Assembly: GCA_018399635.1 (NCBI GenBank)
Contig: JAGYOH010000001.1
Span: 124,001 to 188,000, forward strand
Length of the DNA: 64,000 bases
Reading direction: 5' to 3'
DNA from: Clostridia bacterium
GTDB taxonomy: Bacteria > Bacillota > Clostridia > Peptostreptococcales > Acidaminobacteraceae
Shown: positions 21,691 to 38,333 of the stretch, piece after piece
Position numbering within the stretch: the stretch's first letter is position 1
How the letters are laid out: the number at the start of each line of letters is the position of its first letter
Translations under genes and position numbers: made by a program
Notes under the pieces: generated by a model
Database searches by the model: none
Seen by the model: only the letters and a program-made list of their open reading frames with translations
What the model was told of the DNA's origin: nothing

Positions 21691-21755
21691 TTGACATAAT
21701 TATTTTTATGTATTTGTTATTTAAGTGTTTCATTTCGGGTATTAAATGTTATAAT
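21691..21755 (+). promoter_or_regulatory. Promoter region of the c-di-GMP-controlled adhesin
   Basis: Two candidates: TTGACA (21691-21696) with TGTTAT 18 bases later, and a perfect TATAAT (21750-21755) with a weak TTTCAT upstream. Both would place the aptamer (21806-21893) in the 5' leader. A small inverted repeat GTAAC-AACC-GTTAC lies just upstream near 21658-21671. Confidence 0.5.
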
Positions 21756-21805
21756 GAAGTACTAAACACTGGGGAGTCGACACTTACTCAAGGAAAAAAA
21801 GAAAA

Positions 21806-21893
21806 CAACCGATTGAAAAAGAGCAAACCCGCTGAAAAACGGGGACGCAAAGCTCGAAGTCTAAAATATTCCTTCTGGATATCATGACGGTTC
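21806..21893 (+). promoter_or_regulatory. c-di-GMP-I riboswitch aptamer upstream of the adhesin
   Basis: The aptamer core GCAAACC (21823-21829) and GGGGACGCAAAGC (21841-21853) match the GEMM-I consensus. The GAGC/GCTC pairing next to the ligand site is complete. The 3' part TGAC followed by GGTT pairs with AACC near 21807-21810 as stem P1 and supplies the conserved ligand-contacting C. G precedes CAAACC, the state expected for c-di-GMP rather than cGAMP. An intrinsic terminator begins at the next base (21894). Confidence 0.85.
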
Positions 21894-21925
21894 GGCTGCC
21901 AATCATCTGTGATGGCAGCCTTTTT
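21894..21925 (+). terminator. Riboswitch-controlled intrinsic terminator
   Basis: GGCTGCC (21894-21900) pairs with GGCAGCC (21914-21920), extended by ATCA/TGAT, followed by TTTTT. It abuts the aptamer and lies 40 bases before the adhesin start, so c-di-GMP binding probably sets read-through. ON or OFF direction cannot be decided by eye. Confidence 0.85.
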
Positions 21926-21964
21926 ATATGCCGTCAAAAAAAGATGATGAAAAGAGGGATTTCA

Positions 21965-24900
21965 ATGATCAAGTACAAAGGAAGAAGGTTATTAGGCTTA
22001 TTGCTGGTCTTTACCCTGGTCTTGTCAACCGTGATGCCCGCCATGGCATTTGCTGAAATCGAGACCTTGAAAAAGGATTCAGAAACCACCAACTTCATCA
22101 GAGTCCATATCGGTAATCTGCTGCTCTCGGCATCAGTCATCGGAGTGGATTATACCGAATCGGACTCTCCCGATGAATCAGATTGGATTCCCATGAGTCT
22201 TCAAGGACAACACTATGATTCAGATGATGACAAGTTGTTCGTTTCATCGGATATCAAGGCCTTCCGGGTTCATTACCAGAACCCCGCTCAGACGGTTATT
22301 TATGAACCTGCCAGTGATTACGCCGGTGTGGAAGGCGAAGGCACCATCAACTACTGGCTCTACGACGGCGATCCTGAGGGACTGGTCATTCATAAGATGG
22401 TGGTCGGCGATTCTGAGGATGACACTGAATTTTCAATCACCGTTACTGGTCCAAAGGGTTTCTCAGAACAGGAGACCATCTCTCAGGAGTCTTCAGTCTG
22501 GTTGCCCATTGATGACAATGGTGAATACACGATAGTTGAAACCCCCGCGGCCGGCTATGTGCCTATAGACCCCTACGTCGTCCAAGTGAACAAGAACAAA
22601 CTGACTATCGTGACCATCATCAACATGAAAGAGGAAGACCCTGACCCGGCCTCCATCACCATCAACAAGGAGATTCTCGACTGGCCGGACTTCGGTGGAG
22701 ATATCCCCTCATGGTGGGTTTCACCACCGACAGCATTCAACGTCAACTACACCGGCCCGGATACCACAGGTTCCGTGATCATCACTGAAGCTGCCCCAGT
22801 GGTTTTGAGTGATATGACCACCGGCGCCTATATCTTTACTGAAGCATTCAGCCCCTACTACACCACCTCCCCCGCCACCATCAATGTCACCCTGGATGAG
22901 GGCGGATCTGAAACCATCACCTTCACCAACCGTCTCGACCGCTATGAATTCACAGGGGTCAAGTCCATTACCGGTGAAGCCATCGCTGTCTCCATGGACC
23001 TCTCAGGCTATGAATTCTATGTCGACTATGACGGGGACGGCCATCACGACGCCATGGAACCCGGCGCGACAAGCGATATTTCGGGCAACTTCACCATCAG
23101 CGGGATTCTACCCGGCACCTATGAAATCAAGGAAGTCGCAAATCCCGGCGTGTACACCCTGGTTTATCCGGCCACCGGCAGTCATGTGGTGACCTTCCCC
23201 AGCGATGCACAGGTTGAAGAGTACCGTTTCATCAATGAACTGAATGAAGACGGCGCCATCACCCTCTACAAGAATCTGACAGGTTACCCTGAGTGGGAGG
23301 GAGCAGCCCCCGACTGGTGGCTCTTTGACGAACCGGGTTTCACCGTCAACTACTCCGGCCCCACCACGGGCTCCGTGATCATCAGTGAAACCACCCCCGC
23401 CGTGATCACCGACCTGGCAGAAGGGACTTATACCTTCACAGAGGTGGACAATCCCCTTTACACCACCTCCCAGGCCAGTTTCACCCTGGACTTTGAACCG
23501 GGAGAAATCAGGTCACTCACCTTTGAGAACAGCCTCGACCGCTACAGTCTCGCCGGCACCAAGTACGAGGATGAGGAGGGTTATTTCAACGATGCCAGCA
23601 GTCTGGTCCTCCCCACGGGCCCGGCCCTTGAAGGATGGGTCTTCTATGTAGACTACAACGACAACGGCCTCCTGGATGAGGGAGAGCCCTCCGACACCAG
23701 CGGCAGTGACGGCAACTACGGCATTGAAAACATTCTCCCCGGCACCTACAAGCTCAGAGAAGTTTCCAAGCCCGGCTGGATCGCCACCTATCCCTCGGAG
23801 GGTCATTACGAACTCGCCTTTGGCGAAGAAGAAATCTACTTCTATCCCTTCTACAACTACTTCGATGAAAACCTGCCCGAGACCTGGGATATCCAGGGCT
23901 ACGTCTTCTACGACGAGGACACGGACAACGACTATGACACCGAGGACATCCCGGTAGAGGGCGTCACCATGGACCTCTTCCTGGGAGTGGATGAAGACGA
24001 CTACAACGCCAACATCCTGCCCAATTACGGCACCTATCCCAAGGATGGCACCACCGTCACCGATGCCGACGGCTACTACCAGTTTACGGGCATTCCCACC
24101 ACCACCACCCAGGCCCTGGTGGTCCGCTACAGCAACGTGGAGGGCCCCGTCGTCTCCGAATATGACGGCACCCTGACCGGTACCAACGAAGTCAACTACG
24201 TCTACGGGCAATATGACGATCCCTACGTGAACTTCGGTCATTGGGACCATCACCTGCAGATTGAAAAGAGTGTCGACGACAGTTCCGTCGAACCCGGAGA
24301 TACCGTCACCTACACGGTAATCGTGAGAAACCTGGGCAACATGCCCTTCTACTCTCTGAATGTCACGGATGAACTCGAAGACGAGGATCCGGTGGTACTG
24401 GGAACCGACGACACCTTCGAACCAGGGGAAACCCACACCTACACCTACACCACCTCCTTCTCATCCGAGGGAACCTATGACAATATCGCCAGAGCCGTAG
24501 GCTACTTCTGGGATGAAACTCCCATGAATGTTGCCGATGATGCCACGGTGGTGGTCTCTGAAGACGACGACCCGCCACGAACCACCCGCTACACCCTGAG
24601 CGGCTACCTCTTCAGCGACCTCGACGGGGACAACGTGGTGGATGCCGGTGAAGCCGGATATGAAGGTGTCACCGTCAATCTCTACCAGGGGGATTCCCTC
24701 TATCGAACCACCACCACCAATGCCGACGGCCGCTACTCCTTCAGCAGTCTGAGGGGCACCTACACCGTCGTGGCCAATCCCGATGACGAAATCCTGGATG
24801 CTCAGATTTCCGAGGCGGACGGCACCCTTGACCAGGAAGTCACGGAGTCGGTTTACTCCACCACTTCAAATGTCAACTTCGGTTACCTCCCTGCTCCCTT

Positions 24901-25351
24901 GGATGTGACGACCCTGATTTCAGGCTTCGTCTTCAACGACCTCGACAGTGACAATGTCATGGATGCCGGAGAAACCGGTTACTCCAACGTCGAAGTGACC
25001 CTGTGGTATGACGGTGAAGCAGTCACCACGACCCTCACCGCCGCCAACGGCCTCTACGTCTTCGACTTCCTGACCAATCCCGAGCTCAACGGTATGGATC
25101 CAGGAGATTACACCGTTACCATCGGCACGGCACCAACCGGTGTTTACCAGGTTTCAGAATACGACGGGACTCCCATGGACAGCACCGTGGTTCTGACCCT
25201 CACTGAAGAAACCGAAGCAATCACCGATGTCAATTTCGGGTTTAAGTCTTCTGTCACCCCCAGTGGCGAAACTTATTACTATCAATGGACCCTCTTGGGT
25301 TGTCTGATCCTGCTGGCCGGTGCATTTTTAAGAAAAAAACCGAGCTTCTAG
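21965..25351 (+). CDS. Multidomain surface adhesin (SpaA/SdrD-like, DUF11) with C-terminal sorting region
   Basis: 1128 residues. A signal peptide (about 1-32, ending AMAFA) is followed by an N-terminal region. Two related units of about 200 residues come next (226-425 and 429-640), each with an IPSWW/APDWW motif, GSVII and YTFTE. An SdrD-B-like domain (640-760), a DUF11-type domain (762-865, VEPGDTVTYTV) and two more SdrD-B-like domains (876-1092) follow. Five acidic DxDxD loops such as DLDGDNVVDAGE should bind calcium. The tail is TPSGE, a hydrophobic helix and RKK, a sorting signal without LPxTG. ATG at 21965 has GAGGG six bases upstream. The sortase gene is next. Confidence 0.88.
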   Translation: MIKYKGRRLLGLLLVFTLVLSTVMPAMAFAEIETLKKDSETTNFIRVHIGNLLLSASVIGVDYTESDSPDESDWIPMSLQGQHYDSDDDKLFVSSDIKAFRVHYQNPAQTVIYEPASDYAGVEGEGTINYWLYDGDPEGLVIHKMVVGDSEDDTEFSITVTGPKGFSEQETISQESSVWLPIDDNGEYTIVETPAAGYVPIDPYVVQVNKNKLTIVTIINMKEEDPDPASITINKEILDWPDFGGDIPSWWVSPPTAFNVNYTGPDTTGSVIITEAAPVVLSDMTTGAYIFTEAFSPYYTTSPATINVTLDEGGSETITFTNRLDRYEFTGVKSITGEAIAVSMDLSGYEFYVDYDGDGHHDAMEPGATSDISGNFTISGILPGTYEIKEVANPGVYTLVYPATGSHVVTFPSDAQVEEYRFINELNEDGAITLYKNLTGYPEWEGAAPDWWLFDEPGFTVNYSGPTTGSVIISETTPAVITDLAEGTYTFTEVDNPLYTTSQASFTLDFEPGEIRSLTFENSLDRYSLAGTKYEDEEGYFNDASSLVLPTGPALEGWVFYVDYNDNGLLDEGEPSDTSGSDGNYGIENILPGTYKLREVSKPGWIATYPSEGHYELAFGEEEIYFYPFYNYFDENLPETWDIQGYVFYDEDTDNDYDTEDIPVEGVTMDLFLGVDEDDYNANILPNYGTYPKDGTTVTDADGYYQFTGIPTTTTQALVVRYSNVEGPVVSEYDGTLTGTNEVNYVYGQYDDPYVNFGHWDHHLQIEKSVDDSSVEPGDTVTYTVIVRNLGNMPFYSLNVTDELEDEDPVVLGTDDTFEPGETHTYTYTTSFSSEGTYDNIARAVGYFWDETPMNVADDATVVVSEDDDPPRTTRYTLSGYLFSDLDGDNVVDAGEAGYEGVTVNLYQGDSLYRTTTTNADGRYSFSSLRGTYTVVANPDDEILDAQISEADGTLDQEVTESVYSTTSNVNFGYLPAPLDVTTLISGFVFNDLDSDNVMDAGETGYSNVEVTLWYDGEAVTTTLTAANGLYVFDFLTNPELNGMDPGDYTVTIGTAPTGVYQVSEYDGTPMDSTVVLTLTEETEAITDVNFGFKSSVTPSGETYYYQWTLLGCLILLAGAFLRKKPSF

Positions 25352-25362
25352 ATCAAGGCAAT

Positions 25363-25386
25363 GGGAGCAGGTAAATGCCTGCTCCC
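25363..25386 (+). other. Intergenic mRNA hairpin between adhesin and sortase
   Basis: GGGAGCAGG and CCTGCTCCC form a nine-base-pair stem with loop TAAATG. No T-run follows, so it is more likely a processing or stability element than a terminator. Confidence 0.5.
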
Positions 25387-25406
25387 ACCCTTAAGGGGGA
25401 ATCATC

Positions 25407-26108
25407 ATGAGAAAATTCCTGTCCTGGGCGATGATATCATTCGGCCTGGGTCTTATATTATTCTTTCCTCTCAGGGAGAAGGTTTATGATTACCAGCAGC
25501 AGCAGTTGCTGGAATCAGCCACTTCCCACCCGGAGGAAGCGCCCACCCCATCACCCGGGAATACACCCGGGAAAGCCCCGGTCACACCAGTCAGCAAGGG
25601 GGGTCCCTCCCAGGCGGAGGAACCCGACCTCATGGAGGAATTGGAATCCTCAGCGGAAACCATTGAAATGCCCGATGCCCTGGCCGGCCTGGTGGAAGAA
25701 TCAGAGCCGGATCAACCCAAGGTGGTCGACGGCACCATGATCATCGACGCCATCGATCTCGAACTTCCCATTATTCGAGGCGCCTCGGCGGAGAACATGC
25801 TGGTCTCCATCGCCAGCTTCAAGAACACCATTTCCCCCGGTGACGAGGGCAATTACGCCGTCATCGGTCATCGCAACATCACCTACGGCCGCAACTTCAA
25901 CCGCCTCGACGAGGTGGCCCTGGGGGATGCAATCAAGGTCAAAAAAGACGGCACCACCTACGTGTATACGGTCAAGGAGATTTTCAGAGTCCTGCCCGAG
26001 GACGTGGGCGTTCTTTTCGGCACCTCGGGGAAGAGACAGATCACCCTGATCACCTGTGATCCCATGGGGGATCCCACCCACCGATTGATTGTGCGCGGCG
26101 TCTTATAA
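25407..26108 (+). CDS. Class D sortase
   Basis: 233 residues. An N-terminal membrane anchor (residues 5-22) is followed by a Pro/Glu-rich linker, then the sortase barrel from about residue 105. The catalytic triad is visible: His in IGHRN, Cys in LITCDP and Arg in HRLIVRG. The HRNITYGRNFNRLDEV pattern suits class D. It cleaves sorting signals on exported proteins and links them to peptidoglycan. It lies 55 bases after the adhesin, its evident substrate. GGGGG precedes the ATG by seven bases. Confidence 0.92.
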   Translation: MRKFLSWAMISFGLGLILFFPLREKVYDYQQQQLLESATSHPEEAPTPSPGNTPGKAPVTPVSKGGPSQAEEPDLMEELESSAETIEMPDALAGLVEESEPDQPKVVDGTMIIDAIDLELPIIRGASAENMLVSIASFKNTISPGDEGNYAVIGHRNITYGRNFNRLDEVALGDAIKVKKDGTTYVYTVKEIFRVLPEDVGVLFGTSGKRQITLITCDPMGDPTHRLIVRGVL

Positions 26109-26138
26109 AGAGTCTTTTAAGCATTTCGCATATTTTAT

Positions 26139-26167
26139 TTGACATTTTAGATACTACATGCTATGCT
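26139..26167 (+). promoter_or_regulatory. Promoter of the tandem-riboswitch transcript
   Basis: TTGACA (26139-26144), 17-base spacer, TATGCT (26162-26167). The predicted transcript opens with a small GTTGG/CCAAC hairpin, then the first aptamer. Confidence 0.7.
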
Positions 26168-26204
26168 TTAAGCACGAATAGAAAACCACCAATGTTGGTC
26201 TTTC

Positions 26205-26292
26205 CAACGATAAAGGCAAACCAGCCTAAAGGCTGGGACGCAAAACTACAGGGCCTTCCCCTCATTCAGAGGACAGGCAGCCAGTTACCGAA
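26205..26292 (+). promoter_or_regulatory. c-di-GMP-I riboswitch aptamer 1 of a tandem pair
   Basis: GGCAAACC, a CCAGCC/GGCTGG stem with TAAA loop, GGGACGCAAAAC, and GGCAGCCAGTTACCG follow the GEMM-I pattern. The usual GCAAAGC reads GCAAAAC, which turns the pair next to the ligand site into a C-A mismatch. The ligand-contacting G, A and C positions are otherwise kept. It may bind more weakly than aptamer 2. Confidence 0.88.
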
Positions 26293-26347
26293 CTAGAGAG
26301 ACTTTTTATTTGCCCGAAAAATCAATTCATACTTCGCCAATCTCAAT

Positions 26348-26435
26348 AGCGATAAAGGCAAACCAGCTAAAAGGCTGGGACGCAAAGCTACAGGGCCTTC
26401 CCCTCATTCAGCAGGAAAGGCAGCCAGCTACCGAA
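26348..26435 (+). promoter_or_regulatory. c-di-GMP-I riboswitch aptamer 2 of a tandem pair
   Basis: Nearly a copy of aptamer 1, with the canonical GGGACGCAAAGC and GGCAGCCAGCTACCG. It ends directly at the ribosome binding site GGGAG (26436-26440) of the transglutaminase-like gene, so control of translation start is likely. No terminator is seen between aptamer and start codon. Confidence 0.92.
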
Positions 26436-26449
26436 GGGAGATTATTTCA

Positions 26450-27229
26450 ATGTTCAAACGCACCCTCATGTCATTGCTGACCGCCGCCATGCTTTTCACC
26501 CCCGCCGCCCTCAGTTTCGCAGACACCGTCGATTACAGCCTCGATGTGCTGGATAACGGTTCTTTCAAAATTCAGACCGCCACCAGCAACGATGTCCGGG
26601 TTTTCGTTTCCAAGGGCGATGAAAAAGCCCTCTACACCCTGAAGGAAGACGCCCAGCTGCCCCTTCAGTTCGGCAACGGGATTTACAATGTCACGGTCTA
26701 CGAAAAAATCAACGGCCGGTTCAAACTCATCGATGAAGAAACCATCCCCCTTGATCTTGAAGATTCAAAAACCGTTTACCTGAACCCGGTTCAAAACGTC
26801 AACTTCAATGAGGATATGGCCGCCATCAAAAAAGCCAGGGAACTCACGGAAAACCTCACCAGCCAGGCTGAAAAAATAGAAGCCATCCATCAGTTCGTCA
26901 TCAGCCATGTCGCCTACGACTATCAAAAGGCCCGCACCGTCACCGGCGCCTACGTGCCCAGTGTTGAAGGCACCTTTGAAATCGGCTCGGGAATCTGTTA
27001 CGACTACGCTTCCCTGATGGCCGGCATGCTCAGAAGCGTCGGCGTTCCCACCAAAGTGAGCGTCGGTTATGTCGGCACCGTCTATCACGCCTGGAACGAA
27101 ATCCACCTCGAAGCGACTGACGAGTGGATCACCGTGGACGCCACCCAGGACGCCATCTATCACAAGTACGGTCTCCCGGTGAGCCTGTCCAAGACCTCCG
27201 ACATGTACCAGGTAAAGGTCACCTATTAA
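26450..27229 (+). CDS. Secreted transglutaminase-like (papain-fold) protein
   Basis: 259 residues. A signal peptide (1-24, cleaved near LSFA-DTV) is followed by a beta-rich N-terminal region. A transglutaminase core from about residue 130 has its catalytic triad in GICYDYAS (Cys), VYHAWNEI (His) and ITVDAT (Asp). Such secreted proteins are peptidases or crosslinkers at the cell surface; the substrate is not known. There is no anchor, so it is released or wall-associated. It is under two c-di-GMP-I aptamers and next to the adhesin-sortase pair. GGGAG is nine bases before the ATG. Confidence 0.88.
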   Translation: MFKRTLMSLLTAAMLFTPAALSFADTVDYSLDVLDNGSFKIQTATSNDVRVFVSKGDEKALYTLKEDAQLPLQFGNGIYNVTVYEKINGRFKLIDEETIPLDLEDSKTVYLNPVQNVNFNEDMAAIKKARELTENLTSQAEKIEAIHQFVISHVAYDYQKARTVTGAYVPSVEGTFEIGSGICYDYASLMAGMLRSVGVPTKVSVGYVGTVYHAWNEIHLEATDEWITVDATQDAIYHKYGLPVSLSKTSDMYQVKVTY

Positions 27230-27259
27230 CCGCCATTGAATAGTTTTTCATAGATTCTT

Positions 27260-27295
27260 GATCCCCGGCTCTTCCCCCTCGGGGATCCTCTTTTT
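27260..27295 (+). terminator. Terminator of the transglutaminase-like gene
   Basis: GATCCCCG (27260-27267) pairs with CGGGGATC (27280-27287), followed after three bases by TTTTT. Confidence 0.75.
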
Positions 27296-36671: not shown

Positions 36672-36868
36672 AGAACATCCTCCTTTTTTTGGGCGCTCAC
36701 CTGAGGTGAGTCGCAAGAAATAATTAACCGTGGTGCATTAATCTATTCCAATTCCTTTCCAAAAGGGAGGCAATACAGTTTCCTACATCACCCATTGGTC
36801 AGTCCTCATAGAGATGGCATCCCCTTAGAGAAAGCTGACTCGGAATTTGGTAACGTCTGGCAATGATC
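36672..36868 (-). other. 197-base gap between moaC and AOR with a palindrome
   Basis: It contains a perfect inverted repeat CTCACCT-G-AGGTGAG (36696-36710), extendable by GCG/CGC, close before the AOR ribosome binding site. This could be an operator or an mRNA hairpin. I see no convincing moco/tuco riboswitch or terminator here. The remaining sequence shows no open frame I trust. Confidence 0.4.
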
Positions 36869-37363
36869 CTATTCGATGTTTTCTCCCCGGCGGCGGTAGG
36901 TCCCGGATTTTCCCCCGGACTTGTACACCAGGCGGATCTCCCCCATGACCATGTCCTTGTCTACGGCCTTGCACATGTCGTAGATGGTGAGACCCGCGAT
37001 GCTCACCGCCGTCAAGGCCTCCATCTCCACCCCGGTCTTGCCGGTCAGGGCCACCCGGGACTCCATCAGAATCCGGTTGCCGTCGATTTCAAAGGCAAGG
37101 TCGACACTGGTCAGCATCAAGGGATGGCACATGGGTATGAGGTCGCTGGTTTTTTTCGCCCCCAGGATGCCGGCAATCTGGGCCACCCCGAGGACATCCC
37201 CTTTTTTGAAGCCGCCCTCGGCCACCAGTCTGATGGTCTCGTCTCCCATGGTGATGACGCCCCGGGCGACAGCCACCCTCAGGGTGTCCTCCTTGTCCGT
37301 CACCGAGACCATCCTCGCCCTGCCGTCAGGGTTGAAATGGGTCAGTGGATTTTCTTCCTTCAT
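36869..37363 (-). CDS. moaC: Cyclic pyranopterin monophosphate synthase
   Basis: 164 residues, full length. MoaC signatures: FNPDGRARMVSVTDKEDT at the start, MCHPLMLTSVD and TGVEMEALTAVSIAGLTIYDMCKAVDKDM. It acts after MoaA to form cyclic pyranopterin monophosphate. ATG at 37363 has AAGGGGG eight bases upstream, and moaA ends 13 bases before. Same operon. Confidence 0.96.
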   Translation of the reverse strand: MKEENPLTHFNPDGRARMVSVTDKEDTLRVAVARGVITMGDETIRLVAEGGFKKGDVLGVAQIAGILGAKKTSDLIPMCHPLMLTSVDLAFEIDGNRILMESRVALTGKTGVEMEALTAVSIAGLTIYDMCKAVDKDMVMGEIRLVYKSGGKSGTYRRRGENIE

Positions 37364-37376
37364 GGGACTGTCCCCC

Positions 37377-38333
37377 TTAACCGCCGATTTTGAACATTTC
37401 CCGGCTGATGATGTTTCCTTCTTCAAGATGATGCTCCTGGGGCTTGTTGAAGACCGTTCGTCTGAGGGTCGCCTCGAGGAGATCCGGCGAATCAACCAGG
37501 GGTCTCAGGGGGATCTCTTCATTGGAGTGCAGACAGGGCTTCAGGTAGCCTTCGGAGGTCATGCGGATGCGATTGCACAGGCTGCAGAACTTGCAGGAAA
37601 TGGGACTGATGAGCCCCACCTTTCCCCGGCCCCCCGGCAGCTGGTAATAGGTCGCCGGCGAACTCGGATCCTCCGCCTTCACGGGAAGGAGCCCGGGAAC
37701 CCGCTTGAGGACCTCTTCATTGGTGATGAAGTGGGACTTTGACCAGGTGGCCACCTCGCCGATGGGCATGAGTTCGATGAATCTGACATCGACGGCCTCA
37801 TCCCGGGTCATCCCGACAAAATCCTCGATTTCGTCATCATTGAAACCGTTGATGAGGACCACGTTGATCTTGATCGGAGTGAGGCCGGCCCGCTTGGCCG
37901 CCGCGATACCGGCCAGGGCCTTTTTGAGGTCCCCGCCCCGGGTCATGGCGTGATAGCCCTCGGGCTTCATGGTGTCCAGACTGATATTGACCCGGTCGAG
38001 GCCCGCTTCCTTGAGACTCTGGGCCATTTCTTCAAGATAAACCCCGTTGGTGGTCATGGTGATTTCCTTGATCTGGGGGTGGGCCCGGATTTTTTTCACC
38101 AGGGTCACGATATCCGGTCTCACCAGGGGCTCCCCCCCGGTCAGTCTGATTTTCGTGACACCGAGCCCGGCCATGACCCCGACGATCCGATCGATCTCCT
38201 CGTAACTGAGAATGTCCTCACAGGGGATCTTTTCCACCCCGTCGGCGGGCATGCAGTACTTGCATCTGAGATTGCAGCGGTCCGTGACGGAAATTCTGAG
38301 ATAATTGATGTTTCTGCCATATCGATCAAACAT
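37377..38333 (-). CDS. moaA: GTP 3',8-cyclase
   Basis: 318 residues. The radical-SAM cluster is CNLRCKYC near the N-terminus after the typical YGRNINYLRISVTDR. The second [4Fe-4S] site is CKFCSLC with a later Cys in LKPCL. It converts GTP to the first pterin intermediate. The C-terminal Gly-Gly (KIGG) needed for activity is present. ATG at 38333 overlaps the MoeA-fusion stop by eight bases. Confidence 0.95.
   Translation of the reverse strand: MFDRYGRNINYLRISVTDRCNLRCKYCMPADGVEKIPCEDILSYEEIDRIVGVMAGLGVTKIRLTGGEPLVRPDIVTLVKKIRAHPQIKEITMTTNGVYLEEMAQSLKEAGLDRVNISLDTMKPEGYHAMTRGGDLKKALAGIAAAKRAGLTPIKINVVLINGFNDDEIEDFVGMTRDEAVDVRFIELMPIGEVATWSKSHFITNEEVLKRVPGLLPVKAEDPSSPATYYQLPGGRGKVGLISPISCKFCSLCNRIRMTSEGYLKPCLHSNEEIPLRPLVDSPDLLEATLRRTVFNKPQEHHLEEGNIISREMFKIGG

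Follow-up and report, generated by a model that had tools for sequence, protein, structure and literature searches.

A predicted c-di-GMP-controlled attach/release module of adhesin, sortase and transglutaminase-fold enzyme in a Clostridia bacterium

Genes and aptamers of the locus

The window analysed here is a 64,000-nucleotide stretch from a Clostridia bacterium of the family Acidaminobacteraceae (assembly GCA_018399635.1, contig JAGYOH010000001.1, positions 124,001 to 188,000). It contains a locus in which genes for a putative adhesin, a sortase and a secreted transglutaminase-fold enzyme are accompanied by three class I aptamers (c-di-GMP-I) for cyclic diguanosine monophosphate (c-di-GMP). 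One aptamer precedes the adhesin gene and two in tandem precede the enzyme gene (Table 1). Aptamers were called with cmscan at the Rfam gathering thresholds, and all three exceed the RF01051 cut-off of 35 bits. A search of the whole genome (2.36 Mb, 36 contigs, 95.6% complete) with RF01051 and RF03167 yielded no c-di-GMP-I aptamer beyond these three. All class I c-di-GMP riboswitches found in the assembly and its only sortase share one 5.4-kb locus.

A first-pass annotation of this DNA had described much of the arrangement. The three c-di-GMP-I aptamers lie where it placed them, with Rfam matches in both of the intervals it proposed. Its reading of an aptamer and a terminator (stem 21894–21925, U5 tail) before a 1128-residue adhesin, followed by a sortase, agrees with the Pfam domains and the sorting signal of the surface protein. 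The secreted transglutaminase-like protein that it placed last is likewise confirmed, by PF01841 and an invariant catalytic triad. The separate promoter that it saw before the two enzyme aptamers is found, but six promoter-type sites occur in the region against 4.1 expected, so that the match is weak when taken alone.

Table 1 Features of the locus (window coordinates)
Feature	Position	Strand	Remarks
c-di-GMP-I aptamer, adhesin leader	21812–21903	+	RF01051 68.2 bits; A at the equivalent of Vc2 G20
Intrinsic terminator	21894–21925	+	8-bp stem, -14.8 kcal/mol, U5 tail; predicted ON switch
Secreted wall-anchored surface protein, putative adhesin	21965–25351	+	1128 residues; ATG at 21965; SdrD_B x3, SpaA x2, DUF11 (Pfam)
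Sortase	25407–26108	+	PF04203 9e-29; His155, Cys217, Arg226
Promoter-like TTGACA-17-TATGCT of enzyme gene	26139–26167	+	Consensus match only
Extended P1, 5′ strand GUCUUUC, enzyme aptamer 1	26198–26204	+	
c-di-GMP-I aptamer, first of enzyme tandem	26206–26293	+	RF01051 76.0 bits; G20, A47
Extended P1, 3′ strand GAGAGAC (26296–26302), then UUUUU	26296–26307	+	Predicted OFF, terminator-like stem
Extended P1, 5′ strand AAUCUC, enzyme aptamer 2	26339–26344	+	
c-di-GMP-I aptamer, second of enzyme tandem	26348–26436	+	RF01051 72.5 bits; G20, A47
Shine-Dalgarno GGGAG (26436–26440) overlapping P1 3′ strand GAGAUU (26438–26443)	26436–26443	+	Predicted OFF
Secreted transglutaminase-fold enzyme, proposed releasing protease	26450–27229	+	259 residues; PF01841 2.7e-19; Cys183-His213-Asp230

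The leader of the adhesin gene

The terminator behind the first aptamer is built from the arms GGCUGCCA and UGGCAGCC, followed by five uridines. Its 5′ arm (21894–21901) is at the same time the 3′ strand of the aptamer, and this arm takes in four of the aptamer's pairs as well as the base that corresponds to C92 of Vc2. Because the strand is shared, the aptamer and the terminator are mutually exclusive. Judged by this anatomy, the adhesin leader is probably an ON switch. The pilM leader of Geobacter, for which the ON response has been measured, is similar in that its terminator excludes the aptamer, but pilM senses cyclic GMP-AMP (cGAMP) (PMC9262584).

For comparison, the window and its relatives supplied 35 loci and named genomes another 80, giving 107 after removal of duplicates. 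Our own covariance model (R1) comprises 8 pairs only; an Rfam check on ten loci gave the same 20 aptamers. Of the 107 enzyme genes, 92 have an aptamer immediately 5′ of them; 54 have two or more, and 9 have three. A terminator was counted as ON-type when its 5′ arm begins within the last 16 nucleotides of the aptamer, and the expectation was derived from shuffled downstream sequence. ON-type terminators follow 17 of the 25 distal aptamers, which are mostly adhesin-type (0.70 expected). At least 14 of these 17 precede genes for sorting-signal proteins, and one precedes a sortase gene. Among the enzyme-proximal aptamers, ON-type terminators are no commoner than chance (2/94 against 3.75 expected), and they follow 2 of 24 other c-di-GMP-I aptamers of the same relatives, which serve as background. 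At two loci (L159 and L177), the distal aptamer is positioned directly 5′ of the sortase gene, and no adhesin gene intervenes.

The leaders of the enzyme gene

In the enzyme leaders, the bases just 5′ and just 3′ of the aptamer pair with each other and lengthen its closing helix, P1. For the final aptamers (n = 94), the mean pairing energy of the flanks is -5.91 kcal/mol, against -4.54 ± 0.16 kcal/mol for flanks swapped between loci and -3.05 kcal/mol for shuffled flanks; none of 5000 swaps matches the cognate pairing. The aptamers upstream of them in tandems (n = 63) behave in the same way (-5.44 against -3.61 ± 0.22 kcal/mol swapped; 0/5000 swaps). The flanks of the distal aptamers (n = 25) lack this pairing (-1.79 against -2.03 kcal/mol shuffled), and the mean for the 24 background aptamers is -2.08 kcal/mol. 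At the level of sequence, this comparison shows that the two P1 strands vary together, with the swap test inflated by related sequences.

The extended helix is placed where it could act on expression. At least three Shine-Dalgarno bases lie within it in 77 of 94 loci, and the last aptamer typically ends 12–18 nucleotides before the start codon, where a start can be placed. The helix runs directly into a U-tract in 41 of the 63 upstream aptamers (1.5 expected) and in 37 of the 94 last aptamers (3.9 expected). In the c-di-GMP-I class, ligand binding closes P1. The enzyme leaders are predicted to be OFF switches because the helix that the ligand closes reaches into a U-tract or covers the ribosome-binding site; from their anatomy, we regard this direction as probable too.

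Both leaders might instead be switched alike, with the extended P1 a mere structural clamp that controls neither translation nor termination. When the second enzyme leader is folded without constraints, the extended P1 is not favoured, which agrees with such a clamp. However, a clamp accounts poorly for the Shine-Dalgarno bases inside the helix, for helices that enter U-tracts far above expectation, and for ON-type terminators at chance level in the enzyme-proximal group. We therefore consider a common direction very unlikely and retain the OFF assignment of the enzyme leaders.

Ligand of the aptamers

We take the pocket bases of c-di-GMP-I aptamers to be G20, A47 and C92 (Vc2 numbering). As read from the sequence, both enzyme-leader aptamers have G20 and A47, and the adhesin-leader aptamer has A20 and A47. 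A20 is the base of cGAMP-preferring relatives, and the related genome G004 has it in two of its three adhesin aptamers. The adhesin aptamer could accordingly sense 3′,3′-cGAMP rather than c-di-GMP, in which case the two halves of the locus would answer different signals. Yet A20 also occurs in 13 of the 94 enzyme leaders, and position 20, which tunes specificity, has been called a selectivity factor and not a filter (PMC9262584). The genome contains 21 GGDEF domains; the canonical GD of GHxxGD is intact in 20, and the last is a degenerate domain. Enzymes that make cGAMP carry the Hypr signature, a serine, in their GGDEF domains. This serine is present in none of the 21 domains (the degenerate one is too poor to read). 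A separate cGAMP signal for the adhesin aptamer was rejected after this inspection, which found no Hypr enzyme, and we regard it as extremely unlikely. Because no GGDEF domain has the Hypr serine, c-di-GMP is expected to be the ligand, and it is likely the ligand of all three aptamers.

The enzyme-leader aptamers also score above the 59-bit cut-off of RF03167 (c-di-GMP-I-GGC), at 65.6 bits for the first and 64.3 bits for the second, lower than with RF01051. The RF03167 consensus reads GACGCGAA where both aptamers read GACGCAAA; position 47 is G in that consensus, and the GGC label was rejected on account of their pocket base A47. Position 47 is A in 94/94 enzyme-proximal, 25/25 distal and 62/63 upstream-tandem aptamers (one unread). 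RF03167 likewise lifts other A47 aptamers over its threshold (at L169, L171 and L195) and beats RF01051 by E-value in clan competition, so that automatic annotation mislabels the A47 group. In three triple tandems (L101, L102 and L106), the first aptamer carries C at position 20, which is unexpected in the pocket, and the second aptamer of L106 has T there. These aptamers are possibly degenerate or of other specificity.

Conservation of the module

Neighbourhoods were counted in the 93 loci that have 3.5 kb or more of upstream sequence, and a gene within 3.6 kb was taken as adjacent. A sortase gene is adjacent in 43 loci, a sorting-signal protein gene in 36, both in 24, and both together with a further upstream aptamer in 15. 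The prediction set in advance, that the three genes are kept together, thus holds in part, with both neighbours present in those 24 loci. Adjacency of the sortase goes with the riboswitch: it is seen at 42 of the 82 loci that have an enzyme-proximal aptamer and at 1 of the 11 that lack one.

The fuller arrangement occurs in, among others, Alkaliphilus, Anaerosolibacter, Anaerovirgula, Neobacillus, Bacillus and Paenibacillus. An enzyme homologue was detected at E 1e-25 in 61 of 291 sampled genomes of the class; phage records gave only two distant matches. The nearest genome belongs to the same genus; it was assembled from a metagenome, bears the name 'delta proteobacterium ML8_F1' and encodes an enzyme that is 73% identical. 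Since relatives of the locus occur in Acidaminobacter (same family as the window) and Alkaliphilus (same order), ML8_F1 probably belongs to the Clostridia, and its name is probably wrong. One module (L079, G004:C66) has two adhesin genes and five aptamers, and its first adhesin has a G20/A20 tandem.

The surface protein and the sortase

The surface protein ends in a TPSGE sorting signal, a hydrophobic stretch and a basic RKK tail, and its orthologues share (T/V)PSGE C-termini. In the genus and its nearest relatives (25200–25351 in the window; L077, L078 and L079), (T/V)PSGE stands in place of LPXTG, and the sortase next to these proteins cannot be matched to any curated class. In modules further removed, the motif is LPXTG.

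The active-site residues His155, Cys217 and Arg226 of the sortase are invariant in the alignment. The first-pass annotation had called it class D, a label we reject. In NCBIfam the protein scores 88.6 bits for class C and 84.7 bits for class E, above SrtD (63.2 bits) and class D (60.7 bits), and all four scores are below the curated cut-offs, which are 165 bits for class D and 140 bits for SrtD. The predicted fold hardly separates the classes, with Z 20–22 (up to 21.8) for class A, C and E structures and 19.8 for class D.

The transglutaminase-fold enzyme

The triad Cys183, His213 and Asp230 is invariant in 36 homologous enzyme sequences. PF01841 and DUF553 are the only Pfam matches above cut-off. 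The AlphaFold model (predicted local distance difference test, pLDDT, 92.8) resembles Streptococcus pyogenes TglA (Z 14.3) and the putative proteases 3isr and 3kd4. Further structural matches are LapG (Z 11.2–11.4, not the top match), human transglutaminases (about 11), the 'TGase' 4xz7, and the pseudomurein endoisopeptidases PeiP and PeiW.

The opposed regulation, the gene neighbourhood and the LapG-like fold together suggest that the enzyme cleaves the adhesin, a proposal to which we give an even chance. If the enzyme were instead a transglutaminase proper, crosslinking surface protein or matrix, its PF01841 core, its matches to human transglutaminases and 4xz7, and its position next to a surface-protein gene would fit as well. 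A crosslinker of the adhesin, however, should be made while the adhesin is produced, in conflict with the predicted opposed regulation, and secreted enzymes of this kind, small and with a single core, frequently carry a protease annotation. We thus consider crosslinking distinctly unlikely. The first-pass annotation had left the choice at crosslinking or trimming; the regulation favours trimming or release, and the fold leaves the choice undecided.

The enzyme could also be made at low c-di-GMP and act elsewhere, for instance on peptidoglycan or other wall proteins of cells in the free-living state, with the neighbourhood reflecting a shared regulon only. In accordance with this, a sortase within 3.6 kb is missing from 40 of the 82 testable aptamer-bearing enzyme loci, and the structural matches include PeiP and PeiW. 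The preference of the sortase for aptamer-bearing loci over those without argues in the other direction, and genomes that lack an adjacent sortase may have substrates elsewhere. Another substrate is therefore unlikely in our estimate, and cleavage of the adhesin remains the preferred function.

Proposed mechanism

The aptamers, the terminator overlap, the pairing of P1 with the ribosome-binding site and the gene neighbourhood are seen in the sequence and in its comparison across loci; opposite responses of the adhesin and enzyme leaders to c-di-GMP are predicted. When c-di-GMP is high, the first aptamer would fold and withhold its 3′ strand from the terminator, allowing the adhesin and sortase genes to be transcribed. 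In the bound enzyme aptamers the extended P1 would close, working as a terminator stem at the first and hiding the ribosome-binding site at the second, and the enzyme would not be made. When c-di-GMP falls, synthesis of the adhesin would end and the secreted transglutaminase-fold cysteine enzyme would appear, cut the wall-anchored adhesin and set the cell free. The serial arrangement of the two aptamers is expected to make the response sharper.

We consider it slightly more probable than its denial that the locus is such a c-di-GMP-controlled attach/release module. The switch between attached and free life that had been suggested on the model of the Clostridioides difficile pair is strengthened by the predicted opposition of the leaders. 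Several observations weigh against the module. For the second enzyme leader, the minimum-energy fold obtained without constraints lacks the extended P1, so that stabilisation by the ligand must be assumed. The fold of the enzyme fails to separate protease from transglutaminase, human transglutaminases matching about as well as LapG, and its best matches are TglA and putative proteases. Roughly half of the loci that could be tested lack a sortase within 3.6 kb. In addition, the loci were picked by enzyme similarity and share ancestry, and the counts are not independent events.

A broader proposal is more tentative, and we hold it somewhat less probable than not: that a Gram-positive equivalent of Lap control is widespread in Clostridia and Bacilli, whereby a transglutaminase-fold protease made only at low c-di-GMP releases sortase-anchored adhesins under ON riboswitches. 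Class I riboswitches would mask the ribosome-binding site of the protease and use their own P1 as terminators, and another class I riboswitch would turn the adhesins on at high c-di-GMP.

Relation to known systems

In C. difficile, riboswitches let c-di-GMP raise sortase-anchored adhesins and lower zmpI/PPEP-1 (PMC6366702). CD2831/CD3246 and PPEP-1 (ZmpI) resemble the locus in opposing anchored adhesins to a secreted releasing protease, although here both the opposition and the releasing role are predicted. C. difficile combines a class II (ON) and a class I (OFF) riboswitch with a zinc metalloprotease, whereas the locus uses class I throughout, with two platform designs and a transglutaminase-fold cysteine enzyme beside its own sortase. 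In Pseudomonas, the secreted transglutaminase-like cysteine proteinase LapG removes LapA at low c-di-GMP (PMC3032545). The LapA/LapG/LapD system and the locus have the catalytic fold in common (Z about 11). LapG, however, belongs to another Pfam family and is controlled after synthesis by LapD, in contrast to the predicted mRNA control and putative cleavage here. The locus would represent a third form, in Bacillota, of the attach/release logic known from these two organisms.

The C. difficile Cd1 OFF switch has a separate terminator hairpin (PMC9262584). In the enzyme leaders, by contrast, P1 itself appears to be the terminator stem or the mask of the ribosome-binding site, an apparent OFF design in which the closing helix of the aptamer is the expression platform. 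One aptamer class would thereby serve both directions in a single locus. In titles and abstracts on Bacillus thuringiensis cap/cbpA, a c-di-GMP riboswitch precedes a collagen-binding surface protein, as in the adhesin leader, and a paired transglutaminase-like enzyme is unmentioned.

Tandem c-di-GMP-I aptamers before COG1305 (yebA) are enriched in Bacillota (p 1.08e-34; 94% doublets, 6% triplets) (PMC12452182). This is the same association as at the locus, and the main text of that study treats neither adhesin, sortase, control direction nor function. The module offers a testable reason for this published, unexplained association. The enrichment table is all that we found on transglutaminases with c-di-GMP riboswitches, and our literature search returned no account of an adhesin-sortase-enzyme module, of opposed leaders or of a P1-based OFF design; both searches left most subscription journals uncovered, and the negative is weak. 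The earlier view that this is not a described unit stands for the module and its opposed control, but not for the tandem c-di-GMP-I/COG1305 association.

Other features of the window

A molybdenum/tungsten cofactor (Moco) riboswitch (61.2 bits) is located at 36737–36857 on the minus strand. It lies beside a MoaC gene on the same strand (36869–37495).

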